DNA of 40,121 bases from Nanobdellota archaeon (GTDB lineage: Archaea > Nanobdellota > Nanobdellia > SCGC-AAA011-G17 > GW2011-AR17): NCBI GenBank assembly GCA_013329215.1, contig DUKS01000061.1, forward strand, positions 1 through 40,121, read 5' to 3'. Every line of letters starts with the position of its first letter. Position 1 is the stretch's first letter. This document shows, in pieces, positions 3,126 through 37,494 of the stretch. The notes beneath the pieces were generated by a model that had not been told where the DNA came from, did not search any database, and saw only the letters and a program-made list of their open reading frames with translations. The position numbers and the translations under genes are program-made.

Positions 3126-3209
3126 GCAGGGGTGCCGGAGTGGTCAAACGGGATGGGCTTAGGACCCATTGGCTTAGTGCCTCCGCAGGTTCGAACCCTG
3201 TCCCCTGCA
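3126..3209 (+). tRNA. tRNA-Leu (anticodon UAG)
   Basis: The acceptor strands GCAGGGG and CCCCTGC pair perfectly. The anticodon stem is ATGGG/CCCAT with loop CTTAGGA, giving anticodon TAG at 3160-3162. A long class-II variable arm (TGGCTTAGTGCCTCC) identifies a Leu-type tRNA, and the T-arm is GCAGG-TTCGAAC-CCTGT. The discriminator is A and CCA is not encoded. A second copy of the last 18 nt of this gene lies at 3339-3356. Confidence 0.95.
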
Positions 3210-3356
3210 TAAGGGACTTCGTCCCTTATCAACCCTCTGCGGGTTGCTCATTGCATTCGCAACCCACATAGCGCCATCCGCATAGCGATGGCGCAGGCAT
3301 TTCAAGGGGGCAGGCTCGAATGGAGCGCAGCGGAATGAGAACCCTGTCCCCTGCAT
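3185..3356 (+). repeat. Duplicated tRNA-Leu 3' tail with hairpin-rich spacer
   Basis: GAACCCTGTCCCCTGCAT occurs at 3193-3210 (tRNA end) and again at 3339-3356. The second copy also retains the 5' side of the T-stem (GCAGGCTCGAA versus GCAGGTTCGAA), but its T-loop is expanded by about 20 nt (TGGAGCGCAGCGGAATGAGA). The spacer holds several perfect hairpins: AAGGGAC-TTC-GTCCCTT, CAACC-CTCTGC-GGGTTG (whose right arm can instead start GGGTTGC...GCAACCC) and GCGCCATC...GATGGCGC. No ORF is supported in this interval. Confidence 0.75.
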
Positions 3357-3368
3357 AGAATCCTTTGC

Positions 3369-8805: not shown

Positions 8806-11800
8806 TCATCTGCTGCACCCGGCATATGCTGCATCAAACACCGCCGTTCCGATAGCTTCCTGCCCTGCCCTGTTCGGGTGCAGCTTGTCCGGGTTTGCGT
8901 ATTCATCTTTCATTGCATCTGGGTTTGCAGGGTCTTCAAGCGCGCTGTATACGTCAGCCCTTATGTCAACATCCTTTGCGCCGTTTACAGTATCCATTAT
9001 CCAGCTGTTTACTGCATCGTTCCTGTTCTGCAGCGGCGGCGTCCATTCCCTATAGCCCTTATACGGCGTTATTGTCAGGGCTATCACTCTCATTCCCGCC
9101 TGCTTTGCCATTGTATACATATCCTGCAGGTCTGCCTCAACAGCGTTTGCATTGTTGCCGTTATTGATGCCTCCCATTATTATCACTTCATCGAAACGAT
9201 GGCTGATTATGTCAGCCTGGAACCTGCTTTTAATCCTTGACGTTGTTTCACCGTTGACGCCGTAATTGTAAAAATCAAACTCTGTATTGCACTGCCTGTT
9301 TAAGTAGCATGCATAGCTGTTTGTGCCGTTTGTTATTGAGTCGCCGATTACCCCGACTTTCTTTGCGCTCGTATATGTAACGCCGCTGCAGCTTGCGCAT
9401 CTTGTGTTTGAAGTGCACATGCTGGCCGGAGATTGTGCATCTGCGCCTGGAGTTGCGGCTGCCGGAGCGTCTGTCCTTTCCGCGCATGCCCCGTCTTTCC
9501 ATTCGCAGTATAATCCTGCCCTTGCTGTGCATGCAACTGCCTTGCACATTGCTTCATCATTATTGAAGTCGCTGCATCTTTCTGTGCTTGCGCATGTGTA
9601 GCAACTATCTACGAATGTCCTTACCTGATAGTCTGTTCCAGGCACGCCTGCCGCGCCTTCCTTGTAATAGCATGGGCCAATCCCGTGGCATTCTGCGCTG
9701 TCGCAGCTATTAAATAAGCCTCCCCATGTGCCGCTTCCGCCGCACCCACGGCATCCTGTTGCTTCGGCAGCTTCCGCGCTTTGTGTAGCTGCCTGCGATG
9801 CTGCCCCTTCAGTGTCCCTTGGCGGATATACCCATATTTCAGGCTGCCACTTCCTGCTTTGCTTGTTGTTGGAATCACGGAACACTCCCATTTCGCTCTC
9901 TCCAACTCCGCCGTACATGTCAATCTTGCATCTTTCGTGGAAGCCCCCGCCTGTATCTTCTGCATAATACCAGCCGTTAAGGGGATTCCCATCATTGAAC
10001 TTTATGTACAGCAGCGAGCCGTAGGGTATGAAGCATTGTGACCCGTCATTAGGGTTTACTGCAATTGTCCTGTGGACATCAGGTTTTACGCCTGTTTTTG
10101 TATAACCGTGCTCATTTGCCGGTGTTTTTGGGGTGCCGCCCTCTCCCTTTCGTATCCCTATACCCTCCGCAGAATAAATTAAATTCTCGCACGCGCCGCT
10201 GCCCTCGCATTTAATCTCTTCGTAATATCCCCTGTCTGCAAGGGGCATTTTGCAGGGGGTTTCCCACCAGCACGCTTTCTTTTCGCCTAGGGCTGTGCAT
10301 TTTGTTTTACAGTATTTGTTGCTGCCTACTACTTTGCATAAATCAGCCCCGGTGCAATCGGTGTTGCTTGTGCATTCTTTGGGGTTTGTTGCCAGTATTG
10401 TTTCTGCGTTGTTCCAAAGCCCTGTATACCATTTTGTGCCGTCTGCCCATCCCGGCTTGTCTTTGCAGTCTGCTGTATAATAAACAGTAGCCGCAACCGC
10501 GCCTTCTGCAAATGTTGAAACCCCTTCCGGGGTGTTGCTTGGCGTGTCCTTTAAAACAATCTGCTTCATAATCCGCGTTTTAATAACATTATCAGCTGTT
10601 CCCGGTATGCTGCCCGGGTCAAAGTCCACATAATACCCATAATTTACCACATTGCCTGTTGTCCTCGCGCCGGGATTATCATAACCAATGCTCATTCCGG
10701 TTACAGGAGTGACTTTCGTGCCTGATGAGCTTGTCGGGTTGGCAACTGCCTGTGTTGCTCCTGCGCCAGCACTCGGCCTCTGTTCCATGCTTGCCTGGCA
10801 TGTCCCGCTTCTCCATTCGCAGTTCAGGCCTGCTTTTGATGTGCACTGCTGTGATTGGCATTTGTCGGGGTCGTCATTATAATCAGAGCACTTTGCGGCT
10901 ATTGCGCATGCATGGCATTCGTTTGCCACGTCTTCACTGGACCATATACCCGAAAGGGCCCCTTCTGTGAAAAAGCATGAAGAGCTTAATGCGCCGCACT
11001 CTTCCCTGTCGCACTGGTTGGTCGTGCCGTCGCCGCACCTTTGGCATCTTAATTCAACAACCCTGGAATCAGTCGCATCTTCACTTGCCTGGCCCTCGAA
11101 CCCTTCTGCTTCAAACGGCACTTCAAGGTTGTAATATCTTAAATAAATTGGGTCAAGCACTGTGCCGTATTTTGCCTGCGCAGCAGGCGAGTCCATTCCC
11201 TTAAGCGCGGTCAGGTTTGTTTTTGCAATGGAATATGTTTTGTTTAACTCCGCCCTGAACTCCCTGAAGAAGTCAGGCAGTGTTGCAGGGGTTATTTCAC
11301 TGCCCCGGAATGTTGGTATAATCTCATCCTGCAGCCTGATTGAGAAGTCTGCATGCACGCCCTCAAGTTCATATTCAAGCTGCTCCTTCAGCATCCTGAT
11401 TTCCCGTCTCAGGTCATATTTAGCGCATTTTTCAGCTGATGTTTCCATTAGCGTGCTGTACATATATTGCGATTCGGCCGCAACAGCAGGTGTTATTGTC
11501 CTAAGCTCAAGTATATGGTAAAGAGCCATTGCTTCTGTGATCTGGCCGCATTCTGTTTTCTCAAGCGCGTTAATCCTGTTAAGGTCTGACATGCTTGCAT
11601 TGTAGTCAAGAAGGCCTGTTATGCCAAGCTCTTCTTTCTGCTCCCTGAATCCGGCTTCATCAAGCGCCCTTGACACTTCTTCCATTCTCTCAGTGTCCCT
11701 TATGCTCACTGTAGTCATGTCAATCCAGCACTTGCCCAGGCTTCTTCCTGAGGAATCCTTTCCGCACGTGCCCACTTCTTTCCAGTCCAGCGAGTTTGTT

Positions 11801-14800
11801 CCCTGGCCGGGGTTCTGCGCAGAGCATACTCTCTGTATGCCTGACGATAATATCCCGCCGCTGCTCGGCATGGGCAGGCTGCCCAGCGAGGGGCTTGTTG
11901 TAGGGGCTGACGGGACGCATTCTTCCTCTGAGTTTATCTGCCTCTGCGCTTCATCTGAGACAATCAAGTCATTAAGGTAATTCAGGCCGAAGGATGTGGT
12001 CACTTTTCCAAATCCGCACTCTGTATTCCCGTTCAGGGTTATGCAGACCTGGTCAAACCCTTTTGGCGCGATGCAGTCAATGTTGTATGATGCAATGCCT
12101 CCCTTGTCTATGTGGCCCTGCCTGCCCTCGCACCTTTCTGTCACATATCTCGGGCTTTCGCCTGTGACTGAGTTTTTCAGGAACACCGAATATGTTGCTT
12201 CATTGTCTTCGCCTGCATATATATGGTAAAACACTTCATACCTTGATGTGCCCGTTGTTTCTGAGAATGATGTTTCTGTAAGCAATGCAGTGTACTGCGG
12301 CGGGCTTTCAGGCTGCGCAAGCTGGTCAAAGAATTCGCCGAGCGCAGGCACTTTCCCGAATATAGCCTGCTTGCACACTGTCGTCCCTATCTCTTCCATC
12401 GACCTGGACTGGTATGACGCAAACGCAGTCTGCGCATACTGGGTTGTGAAGAATGAAACAGAGTCTGCCACGTTCTGCAGGCTTGACTCAAAAGTCATGT
12501 ATTCTCCGCCTCCTTCCTGCTGGCCGAAGAATGTCTGTGAAATCCAGTTGAATATTCCTCCCCTGATATTGAATATTGCTATTGCCTCTTTCCAGAGCAG
12601 TTCGCATATAAATACAGACCTGATTTTATCGCAGATGCCAACCGACTGGCCGCTTATCTGGGCTGTCTTCAGGCATTCCACATACCCGCGCAGCACTGAT
12701 TTAATGTTCTGCAGCCCTGCAAGCACGCCTGTAAGGCATATCGGCACCGGCTCATACGGTATGTCAAAGTTCGGAAGACCAAGCACCATTGAGCCGATAA
12801 GGCCTGTCTGCACAACATCGTTAACCTGCCATGTCCCGCCAAGGTTGAACCTTGACGCAGGGCACATCACCGGGTCGCAAACGCCAAACAGCAGCCTGCA
12901 GTCGTCCGGGTCCATTGTGTCGTAGCAGTTTGGCTGGCTTCTTGAGTTGTCTGACTGCGCCCTTGAAGTGCTTACTGCAAACTGCCTGCCGGATGCGCTT
13001 ATCATCTGCCCTTCTGAGCGCGTCCCTACCCTGCTTGCTGTTTCAATCAGGCTCCTCTGTATGGATTCTGAGTCAGACCGTTCAAGCATGCTCTGGTGCC
13101 TCACAAGCACGTCATCCGCAGTGCACAGCAGGCCGTCAGTCCCGACATTCCATTCCTGTATTACGCTCGGGCTTCCGTCCATGTAGAAGTCAAGCACTTT
13201 AACATAATTGCCGTTTGTTGTCGGTATGCAGTAAGGCTTTCCGTCCGGATAGAATTCAGCTGTTGCTGATTGCGCATAATTATCATTTGTCTGGCCTGTT
13301 GCGTATGCAGCTGTCATCGCGACAAAGAAGTTGTTGCTTCCGTCCACAAACACCTGTCCCTGGTTTGTGCTTAGCGGCGCCGCGGGATTTTCCTGGTAAA
13401 CAACCCTTACTCTTTCCAGCTCAGCCGCAATTTCCTTTTGCCTTTCTGCATCATTGCTTGCAGCCGCGGTTGCATTTTCCAATGTTAAGCGCGCCACATA
13501 ATTCTCAACAGTTGCTTCGGCCAGCCCGACCCTCCCGATAGGGGTGTTTGAGTAAAACTCATTGTTTTCTCTCCTGACTGTTGCAAGCGGCACCAGGCCT
13601 ATTGATTCTATCAATGGGAAGTCATTTGAGTTTGTATCCGGATTCGCGAGGCTTGATTGATAAAGGTCAGAGAATACCTGCCTCTTTTCGTCTTCAGGCA
13701 GCTTGTCGAAGTCCGGGTAAGTTGCCTGTATTGCGCCTACAGCCTCGTTGTAAGCAGTTGTCCTGCCGCTGTTTTCAAGGTTGAATGAACCCAGGTTTCT
13801 GTCAACTTCGCGCCTTAAGTCATAGCCTGTTTCATCGCTTCCCCCGTTTAGCTGCGTGTATGCACTTGACTGCCTCATAAGCTGCCAATACCTATAGTCC
13901 CTGAGCTGCTGCTCGTCGAACAGGTCTTCGCCTATATAATCCCCGTATTTGCTTATGTTGCTGTAGTTTGATGCAAGCTGCCTGTACCATGCCTGGCCCC
14001 TGTAATTTTCCATGTCGTCATTTGCTTTTTCCACTGCTTTCTGCGAAGCGTCTATAGTGGTGTCAATGGATGCGGAGTTTTCTGCTATGCATTTATCATA
14101 ACTGCCATACTGCCTGTCATCCCCGCTGTTAGCCCTGCAGTATGCGTCCCATCCGCTTCTGCCGTCAATGCCGTGCATTGCAAACTGCCTTGCCTGCGTC
14201 CTTGACAGCCCCATGAAAAACGAGTTCTTTATTGTAAGGAAAAGGAATGTGCCGAGGCACACTTTTTTCCAGACAGTCACGACATCTGTAAGCTCGTTTA
14301 TTACATCATCAAGGTCCTTGATTATTTCCTGCGTGTCATTTATCTGGCTTCCTATTTCGTCAGGCGTAAGGCTTATCAGCCTTTTTTCTATCGGGATATG
14401 GACTGTGAAGTTTGTTTCGCTTACGAGGGGCGCGCCCGTGCCGGGTATAATTGTCACGATTGCGTATTTTTTCAGGTCCACTGATTTCAGCATTACTGTG
14501 TGCCCGTCCAGGGTGATGCTTTCCCTTATTGAAAGCACTCTTGTTGTCCTGTATGCCTCCGGAGGTGTTGCCCTGTATGTTTTTTCTATTACGACTGAAT
14601 CAGCGCTCATGCTTTTGACATTCCAGTTGTAGTTTCTTGCAACGCCGTCAGGCCCTGTTTCCACAAAGTCGTTTGCGAATATGCTTTTTCCTGCCGGTAT
14701 GCTTTTTGTCCCTTCCTGCTCGACCTGCAGTGTGGCTGTCGGCCTGCTTGCCTGGTCCTGCCACAGGATGTTCATCAGCTTAACCCTTACTGCTGCGCCG

Positions 14801-17800
14801 TTCTCCTCAAACTCGCCTATTGTGAACCTTGCGTGGTCCAGCGCATCAGCCTCAAGCTCGTCTATCCTCGCCCTTGCTTCAGGTATGAAGCTGCCCTTGT
14901 TATTTCTTATCGATTTCTTGTAGTATTCAAGCGCTTTCTCAGAATCTCCGAGCCAATAATATATATTGCCCAGCTTGAAATAGGCCTTGTCTTCGTACAA
15001 AATGCCCTGGCTGTCTTCTATGCCGAAATACTGCTGCGCAAGCCTTTCGTACTCTTTTGCGGCTGTACAGTATACCATTTCCTGCGTTGCGCTCTTTATT
15101 GTTGCAAGCCACTGCTCCGGGCTGTCTGATTCCCTGAGTATTATTTCCTTGCCTTCGCATATGCTGCTGGCTGTCCTTATTTCTGTGCAGCTTGTCCTGC
15201 AGGCCCCGCCTGCCTGTGAACATGTCTTTTGCGCTGGGGCAGCGGCCTGTTGTGCAGGTACAGCCTGTGTTACTTCGGCAGCTGCTGCCACAGGCTCAGG
15301 CTCTTTTGGCTTGCAGCAGAATGTAGGCACGAATCCGCCCAGTGCGGTTACATCCATCGGCACACATTGCGCGGACTGCTGGAGCATGTATGTTTCGCCT
15401 GCGCCTGTATTGCAGGCTGTTTTGCACTGCCATGCATCATCCGGCCCGCACTTGTTTTGTTCCTGCAGCTTCAGCGTTGACACCATCCTGTCTCTCAATC
15501 CTTCAGGGTAGCAGAACTTGTTTCCGTTATATGCCCCCCCGCTTGCGCTGCCGCATTCAAACGCCCCCTGCCTTGATGTTTGGGTGATTGAAACCTGTGC
15601 ACCAGCTGCCGGGGTTATGCAGCACTGCTGTGATGCTCCGCACTCAGTGGCAGGCAGCAGCGCATCTGTACCGCATTCAGCTGCGCAATTTCCTTCAAAT
15701 CCGTATGCTGTGCAGCTTTCCTTTTGGCAGCACTTGTTTCCTGCGCCACACTCTGAGTCATAGCGTGTTAGCGCACTATATCCTGCGCCGCAACTCCCTG
15801 CCTTGCAGGACCCCATATCCTCAGGCCCGCAGTTTCCAGGCGGCGTGCAGCACTTCTTGCCCGGCCCGCACACCACATTATTTTCAGCAACCTCTGTGTA
15901 TCCGCCTGGGCAGCTGCCTTCAACGCACACATTGCCTCCATGAGCGCTTGAGCCGCAGGTTTCTGCCGGCTCGCAGCACGAGAACCTGGATTCTCCGGAG
16001 CTGCTTGTTATAGTGCATTCGCTTTCGTGCTCGAAATCAGGGATAGGGAAAGTATATGAGCATACTGACCTGCATATGCCTTTGCCTGAATCGCATGTTT
16101 TTTCCCTTGCGCAGCATTTTCTGTTTCCGCACTCAATGTTGAAAAGCGGAAGCTCAATCTCTTCGGGGCCGCAGCTGTCCCTGCAGTCATAAGTGTTTCC
16201 TGCGCATTTTTCAGGCCTGCAGCACTTTGACAGCAGACCGCATTCGCTGTCATACCTGCCCTGGCTGCTGTATGAGGGAGCAGTGCATGATGTAAGGCAG
16301 CTGTATGCATCATTCGGCCCGCAGGTCTTTGTTTTGCAGCATATGTTCTTGCTGTTTAATTCGCTGCACACATCATTATTTGCAGAAACTGCTTCTTTTG
16401 AGGCGTCGTCACAGCTTGCAGAACACATTGCCCCGCTTCCTGCATCGCAAATAATGCTTTGGGCAGTCCCCTTGCAGCATTTCCACCATGAAGCTGGATT
16501 TGAGAGGCATTTTCCGGCAGTGAATGATATTTCTGTCCTGCCCAACCCTGACACTGACATGCAGGCATTTACCCTCGTATCGGCGCATGTGCCGCCCATG
16601 GCTGCGCACGGCGTGTCATCCCGCGGCGCTGCTGTAACCAGGGCTTCGGTGCTTACTGCGCTTTCTCTTTCCTGTGCAGCTGCTACTTCCCCGTCTGTTT
16701 CAAGCAGCGCTGTTTTTCCGCAGCATGATTTTCCTCCATCGCATGTGCCTTCAAGCGCAGGATAGTTTACTTCATATTGGAATGCGCCCGTTGTCGCTTC
16801 CGCGGTTCCGGCCTGCCTTTCATCCTGCGTAGCTCCCCTTATCGCGCCAGCGGCGGAATCGCTTACAAGCCCGACTGCCGATGCGATTGTTTCGCCTGCC
16901 CTTTCAATGAAGCTCTTTGAAACTTTTGTCTGGTCCCTTGGCCCCCTTATGACCAGCTCATATGTGATTTTTTTGCCCTGCCTTATTGTGTTTATTTCCT
17001 GGACAACAAGCTCAGAACCAGGGTAAAGCTTTGAGCCTTCTGTGACAACATACTCCCTTTCCTCTCCATTAACATTAACCCTTATCCTTGCCCTGTGCTG
17101 TGACGGCTCTATTATGTCGCTGAGCTTGACACGGAATGCATTTGTCATCAGGTCTGTTGCAGTGCTGAGCCTGATGGGATCTGAAGTTTCGCCTTTCGCC
17201 AGCTCAATGTCTTCAAGGGGCCTTGGAGTTCCTGTAAAAGGCCACTGCAGGTCCTGCCCTCCGTATACGGTAAGCTTTGCACTGTCTTCTGTGATTTCGC
17301 TTGCCCTGACCGCGCCCCTGCCTGAGAAGAATTTGTACTCATCAAGCGGCTTGCTTCGCCATGCAGACTCATCGCGGTCCTCCGGGATGACAAGGTCCTG
17401 CTCTATCATGCTGTAAAGCCTGTCTGCATTTTCAAAAGTTATCTCGGCTTTCATGTTCAGGTTAATCTCATCAGGCACATCCGCTTCCTTCTCAATCTGC
17501 TTCAGCGTGATGATAAGATAGCCAAGGTTGTCCATTGAATACTCTCTTGGCTCGACAACATTGGGGTTGCCCCTGACATAGCTCATTGTCTCTTCGTCAA
17601 GCGGCCTTGTGTAGAACCGCTTTATCTTAACCCCTGTGCCGTACAGCGGCTCTGCAGTTGAACTGCTTCCGATAATGCTTCCCGGGCTTGTGCCTGTAAG
17701 GAAAACATAGACAGGCACGTCGCCGTCTTCTATTACGCCTGCAGGCAGAATGGCAGGCTCGTATCCCTTTACATTAACAAGTATTGATTCTCCTGTGGCC

Positions 17801-17922
17801 TCTTCCTTTGCTTCCTGCTCCCAGTCAAAGATTGCCGCGGAAAACGGCGTTGTTATTATAATCATTGAAAGAACCAGCCCAATCACCGCGTTCCATTTCA
17901 TGATTCTCTTCTTGCTTGCCAT
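8806..17922 (-). CDS. Giant (3038-aa) secreted multidomain protein with Cys-rich repeats, 3D-type domain and C-terminal SGNH hydrolase
   Basis: A signal peptide (VIGLVLSMIIITTPFSAA) opens a 3038-aa exported protein. By eye: beta-rich N-terminus to about residue 370; about ten Cys-rich units ending in CC, residues 390-880 (for example CGPEDMGSCKAGSCG...KCC); a TPR-like pair near 975-1030 (YFKLGNIYYWLGDSEKALEYYKKSI); helical regions with some hydrophobic stretches near 1220 and 1700-1760; a Cys-rich module near 2290-2380, repeated near 2725-2810; between the copies a 3D-type domain with YYAEDTGGGFHERCKIDMYGG (AED at 2654-2656); and a C-terminal SGNH/GDSL esterase with GDSIT (2860-2864), GGINN and DKLH (Asp3012, His3015). 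It follows the KRGQ protein gene by 10 nt. A cell-surface role, perhaps in contact with other cells, is inferred. Confidence 0.85.
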   Translation of the reverse strand: MASKKRIMKWNAVIGLVLSMIIITTPFSAAIFDWEQEAKEEATGESILVNVKGYEPAILPAGVIEDGDVPVYVFLTGTSPGSIIGSSSTAEPLYGTGVKIKRFYTRPLDEETMSYVRGNPNVVEPREYSMDNLGYLIITLKQIEKEADVPDEINLNMKAEITFENADRLYSMIEQDLVIPEDRDESAWRSKPLDEYKFFSGRGAVRASEITEDSAKLTVYGGQDLQWPFTGTPRPLEDIELAKGETSDPIRLSTATDLMTNAFRVKLSDIIEPSQHRARIRVNVNGEEREYVVTEGSKLYPGSELVVQEINTIRQGKKITYELVIRGPRDQTKVSKSFIERAGETIASAVGLVSDSAAGAIRGATQDERQAGTAEATTGAFQYEVNYPALEGTCDGGKSCCGKTALLETDGEVAAAQERESAVSTEALVTAAPRDDTPCAAMGGTCADTRVNACMSVSGLGRTEISFTAGKCLSNPASWWKCCKGTAQSIICDAGSGAMCSASCDDASKEAVSANNDVCSELNSKNICCKTKTCGPNDAYSCLTSCTAPSYSSQGRYDSECGLLSKCCRPEKCAGNTYDCRDSCGPEEIELPLFNIECGNRKCCAREKTCDSGKGICRSVCSYTFPIPDFEHESECTITSSSGESRFSCCEPAETCGSSAHGGNVCVEGSCPGGYTEVAENNVVCGPGKKCCTPPGNCGPEDMGSCKAGSCGAGYSALTRYDSECGAGNKCCQKESCTAYGFEGNCAAECGTDALLPATECGASQQCCITPAAGAQVSITQTSRQGAFECGSASGGAYNGNKFCYPEGLRDRMVSTLKLQEQNKCGPDDAWQCKTACNTGAGETYMLQQSAQCVPMDVTALGGFVPTFCCKPKEPEPVAAAAEVTQAVPAQQAAAPAQKTCSQAGGACRTSCTEIRTASSICEGKEIILRESDSPEQWLATIKSATQEMVYCTAAKEYERLAQQYFGIEDSQGILYEDKAYFKLGNIYYWLGDSEKALEYYKKSIRNNKGSFIPEARARIDELEADALDHARFTIGEFEENGAAVRVKLMNILWQDQASRPTATLQVEQEGTKSIPAGKSIFANDFVETGPDGVARNYNWNVKSMSADSVVIEKTYRATPPEAYRTTRVLSIRESITLDGHTVMLKSVDLKKYAIVTIIPGTGAPLVSETNFTVHIPIEKRLISLTPDEIGSQINDTQEIIKDLDDVINELTDVVTVWKKVCLGTFLFLTIKNSFFMGLSRTQARQFAMHGIDGRSGWDAYCRANSGDDRQYGSYDKCIAENSASIDTTIDASQKAVEKANDDMENYRGQAWYRQLASNYSNISKYGDYIGEDLFDEQQLRDYRYWQLMRQSSAYTQLNGGSDETGYDLRREVDRNLGSFNLENSGRTTAYNEAVGAIQATYPDFDKLPEDEKRQVFSDLYQSSLANPDTNSNDFPLIESIGLVPLATVRRENNEFYSNTPIGRVGLAEATVENYVARLTLENATAAASNDAERQKEIAAELERVRVVYQENPAAPLSTNQGQVFVDGSNNFFVAMTAAYATGQTNDNYAQSATAEFYPDGKPYCIPTTNGNYVKVLDFYMDGSPSVIQEWNVGTDGLLCTADDVLVRHQSMLERSDSESIQRSLIETASRVGTRSEGQMISASGRQFAVSTSRAQSDNSRSQPNCYDTMDPDDCRLLFGVCDPVMCPASRFNLGGTWQVNDVVQTGLIGSMVLGLPNFDIPYEPVPICLTGVLAGLQNIKSVLRGYVECLKTAQISGQSVGICDKIRSVFICELLWKEAIAIFNIRGGIFNWISQTFFGQQEGGGEYMTFESSLQNVADSVSFFTTQYAQTAFASYQSRSMEEIGTTVCKQAIFGKVPALGEFFDQLAQPESPPQYTALLTETSFSETTGTSRYEVFYHIYAGEDNEATYSVFLKNSVTGESPRYVTERCEGRQGHIDKGGIASYNIDCIAPKGFDQVCITLNGNTECGFGKVTTSFGLNYLNDLIVSDEAQRQINSEEECVPSAPTTSPSLGSLPMPSSGGILSSGIQRVCSAQNPGQGTNSLDWKEVGTCGKDSSGRSLGKCWIDMTTVSIRDTERMEEVSRALDEAGFREQKEELGITGLLDYNASMSDLNRINALEKTECGQITEAMALYHILELRTITPAVAAESQYMYSTLMETSAEKCAKYDLRREIRMLKEQLEYELEGVHADFSIRLQDEIIPTFRGSEITPATLPDFFREFRAELNKTYSIAKTNLTALKGMDSPAAQAKYGTVLDPIYLRYYNLEVPFEAEGFEGQASEDATDSRVVELRCQRCGDGTTNQCDREECGALSSSCFFTEGALSGIWSSEDVANECHACAIAAKCSDYNDDPDKCQSQQCTSKAGLNCEWRSGTCQASMEQRPSAGAGATQAVANPTSSSGTKVTPVTGMSIGYDNPGARTTGNVVNYGYYVDFDPGSIPGTADNVIKTRIMKQIVLKDTPSNTPEGVSTFAEGAVAATVYYTADCKDKPGWADGTKWYTGLWNNAETILATNPKECTSNTDCTGADLCKVVGSNKYCKTKCTALGEKKACWWETPCKMPLADRGYYEEIKCEGSGACENLIYSAEGIGIRKGEGGTPKTPANEHGYTKTGVKPDVHRTIAVNPNDGSQCFIPYGSLLYIKFNDGNPLNGWYYAEDTGGGFHERCKIDMYGGVGESEMGVFRDSNNKQSRKWQPEIWVYPPRDTEGAASQAATQSAEAAEATGCRGCGGSGTWGGLFNSCDSAECHGIGPCYYKEGAAGVPGTDYQVRTFVDSCYTCASTERCSDFNNDEAMCKAVACTARAGLYCEWKDGACAERTDAPAAATPGADAQSPASMCTSNTRCASCSGVTYTSAKKVGVIGDSITNGTNSYACYLNRQCNTEFDFYNYGVNGETTSRIKSRFQADIISHRFDEVIIMGGINNGNNANAVEADLQDMYTMAKQAGMRVIALTITPYKGYREWTPPLQNRNDAVNSWIMDTVNGAKDVDIRADVYSALEDPANPDAMKDEYANPDKLHPNRAGQEAIGTAVFDAAYAGCSR

Positions 17923-21364: not shown

Positions 21365-21392
21365 ATAATATAAAGCCAAGTTCCCTGAAATT

Positions 21393-21522
21393 CCCAGAGG
21401 GGTTGAAATCACTCGCGTGATTAACCCCTCTGCGACTTCGTATTCGAAACGCCTCATGCGTTTCGGATATCCGAGAATCTCTGATTCTCGAATACTTCGC
21501 TCAGCCCCAGAGGGGAGTTGAA
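21393..21522 (-). repeat. Duplicated tRNA-Thr 3' tail with hairpin-rich spacer
   Basis: Minus-strand TTCAACCCCTCTGGG at 21407-21393 echoes the tRNA-Thr 3' end TTCAACTCCCCTCTGGGG (21522-21505). The copy forms an AGAGGGG/CCCCTCT stem whose loop carries an inserted ATCAC-GCGA-GTGAT hairpin, so it again looks like a T-arm with an expanded loop. The spacer contains CGAAACGC-CTCAT-GCGTTTCG (21445-21465) and CGAGAATC-TCT-GATTCTCG (21472-21490), enclosed by GTATTCG/CGAATAC, forming a three-way junction. No gene is supported here. Confidence 0.7.
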
Positions 21523-30110: not shown

Positions 30111-30169
30111 TTTATATATACTGCAATATTTCTTATTTGCATGCTTCCCGAGCAAATACGAAGGGAAGC
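30111..30169 (+). promoter_or_regulatory. TATA box and leader hairpin of the second KRGQ operon
   Basis: TTTATATATA at 30111-30120 predicts a start near 30142. The leader begins with a perfect 7-bp inverted repeat GCTTCCC...GGGAAGC (30143-30169), followed by GAACGGAGCGAAGCGAAGTG, which resembles GAACGGAGC and GAGCGAAGT in the tRNA-Ser and tRNA-Thr spacers. Confidence 0.45.
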
Positions 30170-30195
30170 TTTGAACGGAGCGAAGCGAAGTGAAA

Positions 30196-30702
30196 ATGCA
30201 GAAAAGAGGGCAGGTTACAATATTCGTTATTCTCGGGATTATACTTGTTGCGGCGATTATAGTCGGAATTGTTTTGAGGAAGGATATTGTGAGCGCAGTG
30301 AGCAGGTCTGAAACAACCACAGCTGCGTCATTCCAGGAGCAGGCAGAGGAAGTTAAGGCGCATGTGGAAGAGTGCCTGACTGATGCGCTAAAGGAAGCTG
30401 TTTTCCATTCTATTATAGGCTCTTCTACCAGTCTGACGCAGGAAATGTATTATGAGCAGGTTAGTCTTTTCATTAAAGACCAGCTCAATGCATGTATTGA
30501 TTTTACACTGTTCCCGAATTTATATATTACAAGGGGCGGGCAGACAGAGGTAAGGGTCTATGGAGATTCAAAAGAACCTCCTACAAAAATACAGGCTGAT
30601 TTGAAAATGAGGGTTGACATAACACGCGGCGAGGACCATGCTTCATTTGATGAACTAACGGGCACAATACCTTTAAAATCAAGGGCGGAGTTGGCACAAT
30701 GA
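30196..30702 (+). CDS. KRGQ-type pilin-like membrane-anchored protein (short)
   Basis: The track starts at a GTG (30190); the ATG at 30196 gives MQKRGQVTIFVILGIILVAAIIVGIVL, matching the N-terminus of the 658-aa protein, and leaves 168 aa. The K-R-G leader followed by Gln and a hydrophobic helix fits a type IV prepilin-like signal, or an uncleaved anchor. The exterior part (EVKAHVEECLTDALKEAVFHSIIGS..., YEQVSLFIKDQLNACIDF) also resembles the start of the 658-aa protein, where a Cys and a helix follow at a similar distance. Its stop codon overlaps the ATG of the 1481-aa gene (ATGA), so the two are coupled, in the same order as KRGQ protein plus giant protein at 8806-19909. Confidence 0.72.
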   Translation: MQKRGQVTIFVILGIILVAAIIVGIVLRKDIVSAVSRSETTTAASFQEQAEEVKAHVEECLTDALKEAVFHSIIGSSTSLTQEMYYEQVSLFIKDQLNACIDFTLFPNLYITRGGQTEVRVYGDSKEPPTKIQADLKMRVDITRGEDHASFDELTGTIPLKSRAELAQ

Positions 30703-37339: not shown

Positions 37340-37423
37340 GCCGTGGTGGCGCAACCTGGTACCGCGCTAGCCTTGAGAGCTAGTTCCCGCAAGGGTTTCC
37401 CGGTTCAAATCCGGGCCACGGCG
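37340..37423 (+). tRNA. tRNA-Ser (anticodon UGA)
   Basis: Acceptor GCCGTGG/CCACGGC, anticodon stem CTAGC/GCTAG with loop CTTGAGA giving TGA, class-II variable arm with CCC-GCAA-GGG, T-arm CCCGG-TTCAAAT-CCGGG, discriminator G as expected for tRNA-Ser. No clear TATA box was found; it may be transcribed with the Trm112-like gene 23 nt upstream. Its 3' end is repeated at 37480-37494. Confidence 0.95.
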
Positions 37424-37494
37424 TAGTGAGCGTGCGAACGGAGCTGGGGCGCGGCACAAAAATCTCGGATTTTTGGCAGCCGGGCCACGGCGTA
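37411..37494 (+). repeat. Duplicated tRNA-Ser 3' tail with hairpin spacer
   Basis: CCGGGCCACGGCGTA is present at 37411-37425 (tRNA end plus 2 nt) and at 37480-37494. The spacer contains the perfect hairpin AAAAATC-TCG-GATTTTT (37459-37475) and GAACGGAGC. Downstream, 37495-37607 holds no supported gene; the tracked minus-strand ORF here is a translation of the tRNA. Confidence 0.75.

Follow-up and report, generated by a model that had tools for sequence, protein, structure and literature searches.

The DNA analysed here, called the window throughout, is a stretch of 40,121 nt from a Nanobdellota archaeon (assembly GCA_013329215.1, contig DUKS01000061.1), and its tRNA-Ser(UGA) gene raises a simple question: how did the 3' tail of a tRNA gene come to stand a second time a short way downstream? 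As a preliminary description of this DNA had claimed, the tail (CCGGGCCACGGCGTA) recurs at an offset of 69 nt with 15 of 15 nucleotides identical, and the copied stretch runs 2 nt past the Rfam end of the gene. The same description had given the corresponding overshoot at tRNA-Leu as 1 nt, which the Rfam boundary (3209) corrects to 2 nt for a copy of 19 nt. It had also seen a hairpin, AAAAATC-TCG-GATTTTT, between the two serine tails; this exists, with 8 bp if the flanking C-G pair is counted, but it is only the tip of a larger hairpin. The picture of a simple tail duplication thus gives way, since an imperfect inverted copy (X') sits between both tails (X) and forms the 5' arm of the larger hairpin, with the second tail as its 3' arm (Table 1). 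Folded as DNA, the unit reaches −18.2 kcal/mol (z −2.83), with 1 of 200 shuffles equally good; folded as RNA, its z is −1.96.

Table 1. Features of three tRNA units and of the KRGQ gene start in the window.
Feature	Position	Strand	Remark
tRNA-Ser(UGA) gene	37340..37423	+	Rfam boundary
tRNA-Ser unit, X, first copy	37411..37425	+	tRNA-Ser 3' tail plus 2 nt
tRNA-Ser unit, L1	37426..37442	+	spacer containing the GAACGGA word
tRNA-Ser unit, X'	37443..37455	+	imperfect inverted tail, 11/13 positions paired with 37479-37491
tRNA-Ser unit, L2	37456..37478	+	tip hairpin CAAAAATC-TCG-GATTTTTG, 3-nt bulge
tRNA-Ser unit, X, second copy	37480..37494	+	3' arm of hairpin
tRNA-Leu(UAG) unit, X, first copy	3193..3211	+	
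tRNA-Leu(UAG) unit, X'	3305..3314	+	
tRNA-Leu(UAG) unit, L2	3315..3338	+	carries the GAGCGCAGCGG word
tRNA-Leu(UAG) unit, X, second copy	3339..3357	+	
tRNA-Thr(UGU) unit, X, first copy	21503..21515	-	
tRNA-Thr(UGU) unit, X'	21423..21432	-	
tRNA-Thr(UGU) unit, L2	21403..21422	-	
tRNA-Thr(UGU) unit, X, second copy	21389..21402	-	10 nt exact, divergent beyond
KRGQ gene start, X, first copy	30141..30144	+	ATGC
KRGQ start insert, first hairpin H1	30143..30169	+	
KRGQ start insert, second part H2	30170..30195	+	with GAACGGAGCGAAGCGAAGTGA
KRGQ gene start, X, second copy	30196..30199	+	ATGC, start codon

We counted a tRNA gene as carrying an own-tail copy if at least 10 nt of its tail recurred no more than 250 nt downstream, with other tRNA genes masked. 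By this measure 15 of the 37 tRNA genes found with Infernal and ARAGORN in the genome of the window (G000) have a copy, as do 16 of 40 in G001, 8 of 38 in G002 (two weak tRNA matches, C169 and C123:13273, being left out) and 14 of 36 in G003. These three are same-genus relatives, whose tRNA-Ser flanks match the records Candidatus Nanoarchaeia archaeon STB_88, Nanoarchaeota archaeon Yes70-37 and Nanoarchaeota archaeon OS_PC_MetaG.mb.129, respectively; we accordingly regard the host as a DPANN archaeon. The pooled count of 53 of 151 compares with a mean of 2.78 and a maximum of 10 over 5000 within-genome permutations of the tails. Tails of other isotypes gave 26 matches in 5304 trials, a control with some label noise, as ARAGORN isotypes are unreliable for intron-bearing genes and a few of the 151 genes may be false, and a match of at least 10 nt upstream was found at 5 of the 151. 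Chance as a source of the copies is ruled out by the permutations and by the other-isotype tails. Outside the genus, none of 92 ARAGORN genes had an own-tail copy in four genomes of the same family (G004, G032) or order (G016, G073), in which Infernal gave 100 matches; within the genomes tested, the trait marks this genus.

Structurally, the units observed at tRNA genes follow one order, X - L1 - X' - L2 - X: a tail, a loop, an inverted and imperfect tail, a hairpin loop and a second tail. X comprises 13-19 nt at the gene's 3' end and usually begins after the T-loop. The distance from start to start of the two tails is 42-186 nt and falls into two main size classes, one of 42-71 nt and one mostly of 90-103 nt; L1 of the short units is frequently GAGCGAAGCGA or a variant of it, and in many long units some 50 AT-rich nucleotides replace it. 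The L2 loop, often tipped with GNA or GNRA, frequently holds GAACGNAGTGA or a stem with such a tip. Once tRNA-Asp of G000, which contains a run of N, is excluded from pairing and folding, 52 units remain, with a mean z of −3.58 and z below −2 in 43 of them; many of their loops are of the GNA/GNRA type, and the commonest tips are C(GAA)G, C(CGCA)G, C(AAA)G and C(GCAA)G. Expressed in tRNA numbering, pairing between the arms extends across positions 61-72 of the short units and across 61-69 of the long ones, and X', rarely perfect, reaches a mean pairing score of 8.11 with its own copy versus 5.74 with the tails of other tRNAs, the own copy being the best partner of all in 21 of the 52 units. Because of this pairing range and this preference for the own copy, the unit looks, to judge from its sequence, like its own tRNA's acceptor/T-arm half in which another sequence has taken the place of the T-loop. 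Pairing dips at positions 65 and 69; among short units, position 69 is paired in just 15 of 26 and position 65 in 17 of 26, though their neighbours pair.

This own-versus-other difference speaks against replication slippage as the sole cause. Plain tandem duplication, with hairpins arising by chance, makes no inverted copy and leaves both the recurring words and the own-tail pairing unexplained, so that we consider it very improbable even though true tandem arrays do exist, of 93 nt after tRNA-Met (L006) and of 102 nt after tRNA-Ala(CGC) (L011). In these arrays the whole unit is repeated, the AT-rich spacer included. Tandem repeats at E. coli tyrT (rtT RNA) likewise follow a tRNA gene and contain the tRNA 3' end; unlike the units here, they are 178-bp repeats of one locus, and we know of no host-matched inverted arm in them.

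The 3' ends of tRNA genes are classic integration sites, and a downstream copy of the tail is the usual mark of integration, which invites the view that the repeats are attachment-site scars left by integrative elements with a tyrosine recombinase. We give this view very little credence: a start-to-start distance of 42-186 nt leaves no room for genes, and no mobile genes lie between the repeats; many different tails are involved within one genome, and X mostly begins after the T-loop; an inverted tail sits inside the unit; and start codons are hit as well.

Both arms, moreover, are observed to match the host tRNA. In G001 the units of the tRNA-Gly genes tcc, ccc and gcc are nearly identical to one another, and at 7:66, where gcc has A-T versus G-C in tcc and ccc, a T stands in its downstream copy and an A in its X'. 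Likewise, the tRNA-Phe units of G002 and G003 differ at hairpin positions 67 and 71, where G-C is replaced by A-T, and the tails differ accordingly. On this sequence evidence, drift of an old insertion would hardly be the source of such matched changes, which would follow either from copying of the local tail or from gene conversion together with selection for pairing. A selected RNA structure, namely a trailer or minihelix mimicking the top half of the tRNA, kept matched to it by selection and acting in 3' maturation, in termination or as a decoy, would agree with the strong folding (the mean z given above), the regular 61-72 pairing and the matched changes in both arms. We nevertheless rate it as distinctly improbable, given that only 53 of 151 genes have the hairpin, that it is patchy across orthologous tRNAs and absent from the 92 genes in other genera, that relatives manage without it, and that it leaves the start-codon family described below unexplained. 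As a separate observation, tRNA-Ser(GGA) and tRNA-Ser(UGA) of G003 (L059, L043) carry nearly identical units, and tRNA-Ser(GGA) of G000 has none.

Beyond the tRNA genes, the preliminary description had noted that short words recur in the spacers and before the KRGQ gene at 30171. Of these, GAACGGAGC holds up, standing in the serine spacer and at 30173, two occurrences in the window versus 0.13 in simulated sequence; GAGCGAAG alone, with 3 versus 1.4 (maximum 3 in 30 simulations), is not significant. The genome-wide search that had been proposed there shows the words to exceed their control in each of the four same-genus genomes: for GARCGNAGYGA, G000 has 46 occurrences versus 12 for the reversed control, and G001, G002 and G003 have 50 versus 10, 53 versus 10 and 37 versus 8. 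Outside the genus the counts are 0 versus 3 (G004), 1 versus 1 (G016), 8 versus 5 (G073) and 16 versus 5 (G032). The words extend beyond the genus, since GAGCGAAGCGA alone is present in 36 of 103 genomes of the order, and the tail copies are unseen in the four outside genomes. Around KRGQ, a 70-nt query (30134-30203) gives 24 matches, itself included, in the four same-genus genomes at E <= 0.05, and these observed dispersed copies consist of a first hairpin and a part resembling TTGAACGNAGYGAAGTGAAA, often with a start codon at the end. The site at 30171 is thus a member of a dispersed family of short hairpins, inserted at a start codon with a repeat of ATGC. An effect of tRNA genes alone is ruled out, as the start-codon family has the same words. 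The idea of one mechanism that copies tRNA ends with their flank therefore survives in altered form: 15 of 37 tRNA genes of the genome bear it out, but the process reaches beyond tRNAs, and the inverted copy had been missed.

The start-codon sites themselves give a fainter picture. Motif sites in G000 fall at start codons in 9 of 26 sense and 3 of 26 antisense cases versus 341 of 2000 random positions (17%), a count that includes the KRGQ site twice and draws on the 30 of 46 motif matches that had loci; a preference for start codons is suggestive only. At z −1.24, the folding of the KRGQ insert does not surpass that of shuffles. When X-X'-X triples were sought blindly at motif sites, the yield hardly exceeded the level of shuffled sequence, with 30 of 72 versus 31% for at least 5 nt and 7 of 72 versus 4% for at least 6 nt, and a blind search of the window for 7-mer triples gave 4 versus 1.0 expected, none of them a described unit. 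Thus the tRNA units carry strong evidence, and their tie to the start-codon family consists of shared words, similar layout, and filled and empty sites.

A dispersed hairpin family also brings to mind REPINs, which are thought to be moved by RAYTs, and a rival modelled on them would have the hairpins be non-autonomous elements moved as single-stranded DNA by a Y1 (HUH) transposase of the IS200/IS605 type, with the match to the host produced by later gene conversion or selection. In line with it, Y1_Tnp genes are present in G000, G002 and G003 (6 of 20 relatives searched), an IS200-type transposase gene of G003 (L216:843-1250) has a GAGCGAAGCGA hairpin just past its 3' end, and the hairpin family is indeed dispersed, above chance, in the genomes here. 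The stretch L215 of G000, unlike L216 of G003, yielded no GAGCGAAGCGA motif. Yet no Y1_Tnp match turns up in G001, a genome that is 99% complete and has many units (16 of 40); on the REP-associated model NF047646, with its cut-off of 80 bits, the Y1 proteins reach 25.8 (G000) and 24.6 (G003), while they pass the IS200 model; and a moved element would be expected to bring fixed arms, whereas the arms here match the host. An association with RAYTs is ruled out by the NF047646 score. The tags GTAG and CGTC, named as REP tags in the title of PMC3733652, lie within 40 nt of the motif at just 6 of 29 and 3 of 29 sites, so that no conserved tag is seen. Overall, we hold transposase-driven movement to be unlikely, if less so than the other rivals. 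The likeness to REPINs and REP elements, which in the extract of PMC3116915 are short, dispersed, extragenic hairpins with compensatory stem changes, remains one of form; the family here has no RAYT by the NCBIfam cut-off, and its arms follow the host site and not a fixed family sequence.

Comparison among relatives, also proposed in the preliminary description, reveals both filled and empty sites. At the start of KRGQ, 55 nt with ATGC on either side are present in the window and missing from G001 and G003, the two genomes that this comparison covers (G002 is not comparable), which have a single ATGC. At the start of the gene for ribosomal protein S19e (Pfam), an insert of the form ATGGC...GCCAT...ATGGC is common to G000 and G002 and absent in G001 and G003; the G002 insert holds a second, nested one. 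The tRNA-Thr site is filled in the window and empty in G002 and G003, where the next tRNA follows within a few nucleotides, and G001 has different hairpin DNA there, with no tail copy. G003 has a filled site at tRNA-Val(CAC), which in G000 is empty; the site at tRNA-Ser(UGA) is filled in G000 and G003 and empty in G002, the G001 sequence being interrupted by N. The words are therefore enriched and empty sites exist, the two points on which the preliminary description had made its claim depend. These comparisons have no outgroup and do not separate gain from loss at each site; precise loss instead of gain is possible. A further hairpin insert lies nested within the loop of the first unit at L070 (G003 tRNA-Gly tcc) and L435 (the G002 S19e start), as if elements had landed in elements.

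Mechanistically, we posit, at about an even chance, a genus-wide set of very small insertions, each a double hairpin with arms templated by the sequence where it lands, much as small inverted triplications would arise by hairpin-primed template switching; the family looks recently active. An insertion would turn a host word X into X - L1 - X' - L2 - X, where L1 and L2 would be short hairpin loops, often GNA- or GNRA-tipped, that partly recur as the dispersed family; in the start-codon family, which would be related to the tRNA units, X would be only a few nucleotides. A growing DNA strand that had already copied X would pick up or meet a self-priming mini-hairpin and fold back on it, so that X would be copied into X'; a second hairpin would then be met, and a second fold-back would copy X' into X, after which synthesis would resume on the strand's own template. 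The product would be a small inverted triplication with hairpin spacers, and longer arrays would grow by ordinary tandem duplication. The duplication of X leaves the tRNA or start codon whole, and this would account for the retention of such sites. Template switching, the origin of L1 and L2 and the direction of change are what we infer here.

Small inverted triplications have been described in the order DUP/spacer/INV/spacer/DUP, and their origin has been ascribed to misalignment or folding back of 3' flaps in the course of replication (PMC13334657, in extract). The units here resemble them in being direct-inverted-direct, with two short spacers, and hairpin-forming, an order clear for the tRNA units and just weak for the dispersed start-codon copies. 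Monttinen and Loytynoja found GNRA loops enriched at hairpin stems changed in one step and suggested fold-back priming, with stable GNRA loops favouring intrastrand template switching (PMC8794818, in extract); stable loops would favour fold-back priming here in the same way. In contrast, the published triplications, studied in yeast, human and E. coli, have arms with a median of about 150 bp, going by the same extract of PMC13334657, versus 4-19 nt here; the units here are archaeal, occupy tRNA tails and start codons, and have spacers that recur as a sequence family. Under the fold-back model as we read it, the spacers would derive from local sequence, whereas the L2/H2 words recur at unrelated sites. 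Ordinary template switching leaves this recurrence of L1 and L2 words unexplained, and a donor or an enzyme is thus missing from the model: it would take either an enzyme or a donor copy that template switching can reach. Compared by description, mitochondrial double-hairpin and repetitive hairpin elements of Allomyces and sponges are also tiny hairpins between genes and near tRNA genes (PMC2800124); the extract of that source has the Allomyces elements lacking flanking duplications, whereas in the units here the host word is both duplicated and inverted. Within the collection searched, no titles or abstract openings describe such units in archaea.

We further suggest, tentatively and with less confidence than in fold-back copying as such, that these are mobile micro-hairpins without fixed arms, which bring only a pair of self-priming mini-hairpin loops, both arms being made anew from the sequence at the landing site. 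If so, each insertion would fit the tRNA or start codon that receives it and would leave it undamaged, a mode of spread between transposon and replication error. If fold-back copying is right, these genomes would offer dozens of natural, comparable hairpin insertions with a known template (the host tRNA end), from which fold-back template switching could be studied at the level of sequence; they would show a one-step origin of hairpins with matched arms, and a way for a compact archaeal genome to accept insertions at its tRNA genes and at the start codon of a ribosomal-protein gene while keeping both unbroken. Apart from these units, the window also contains an open frame of 3038 aa on the minus strand (8806-17922).
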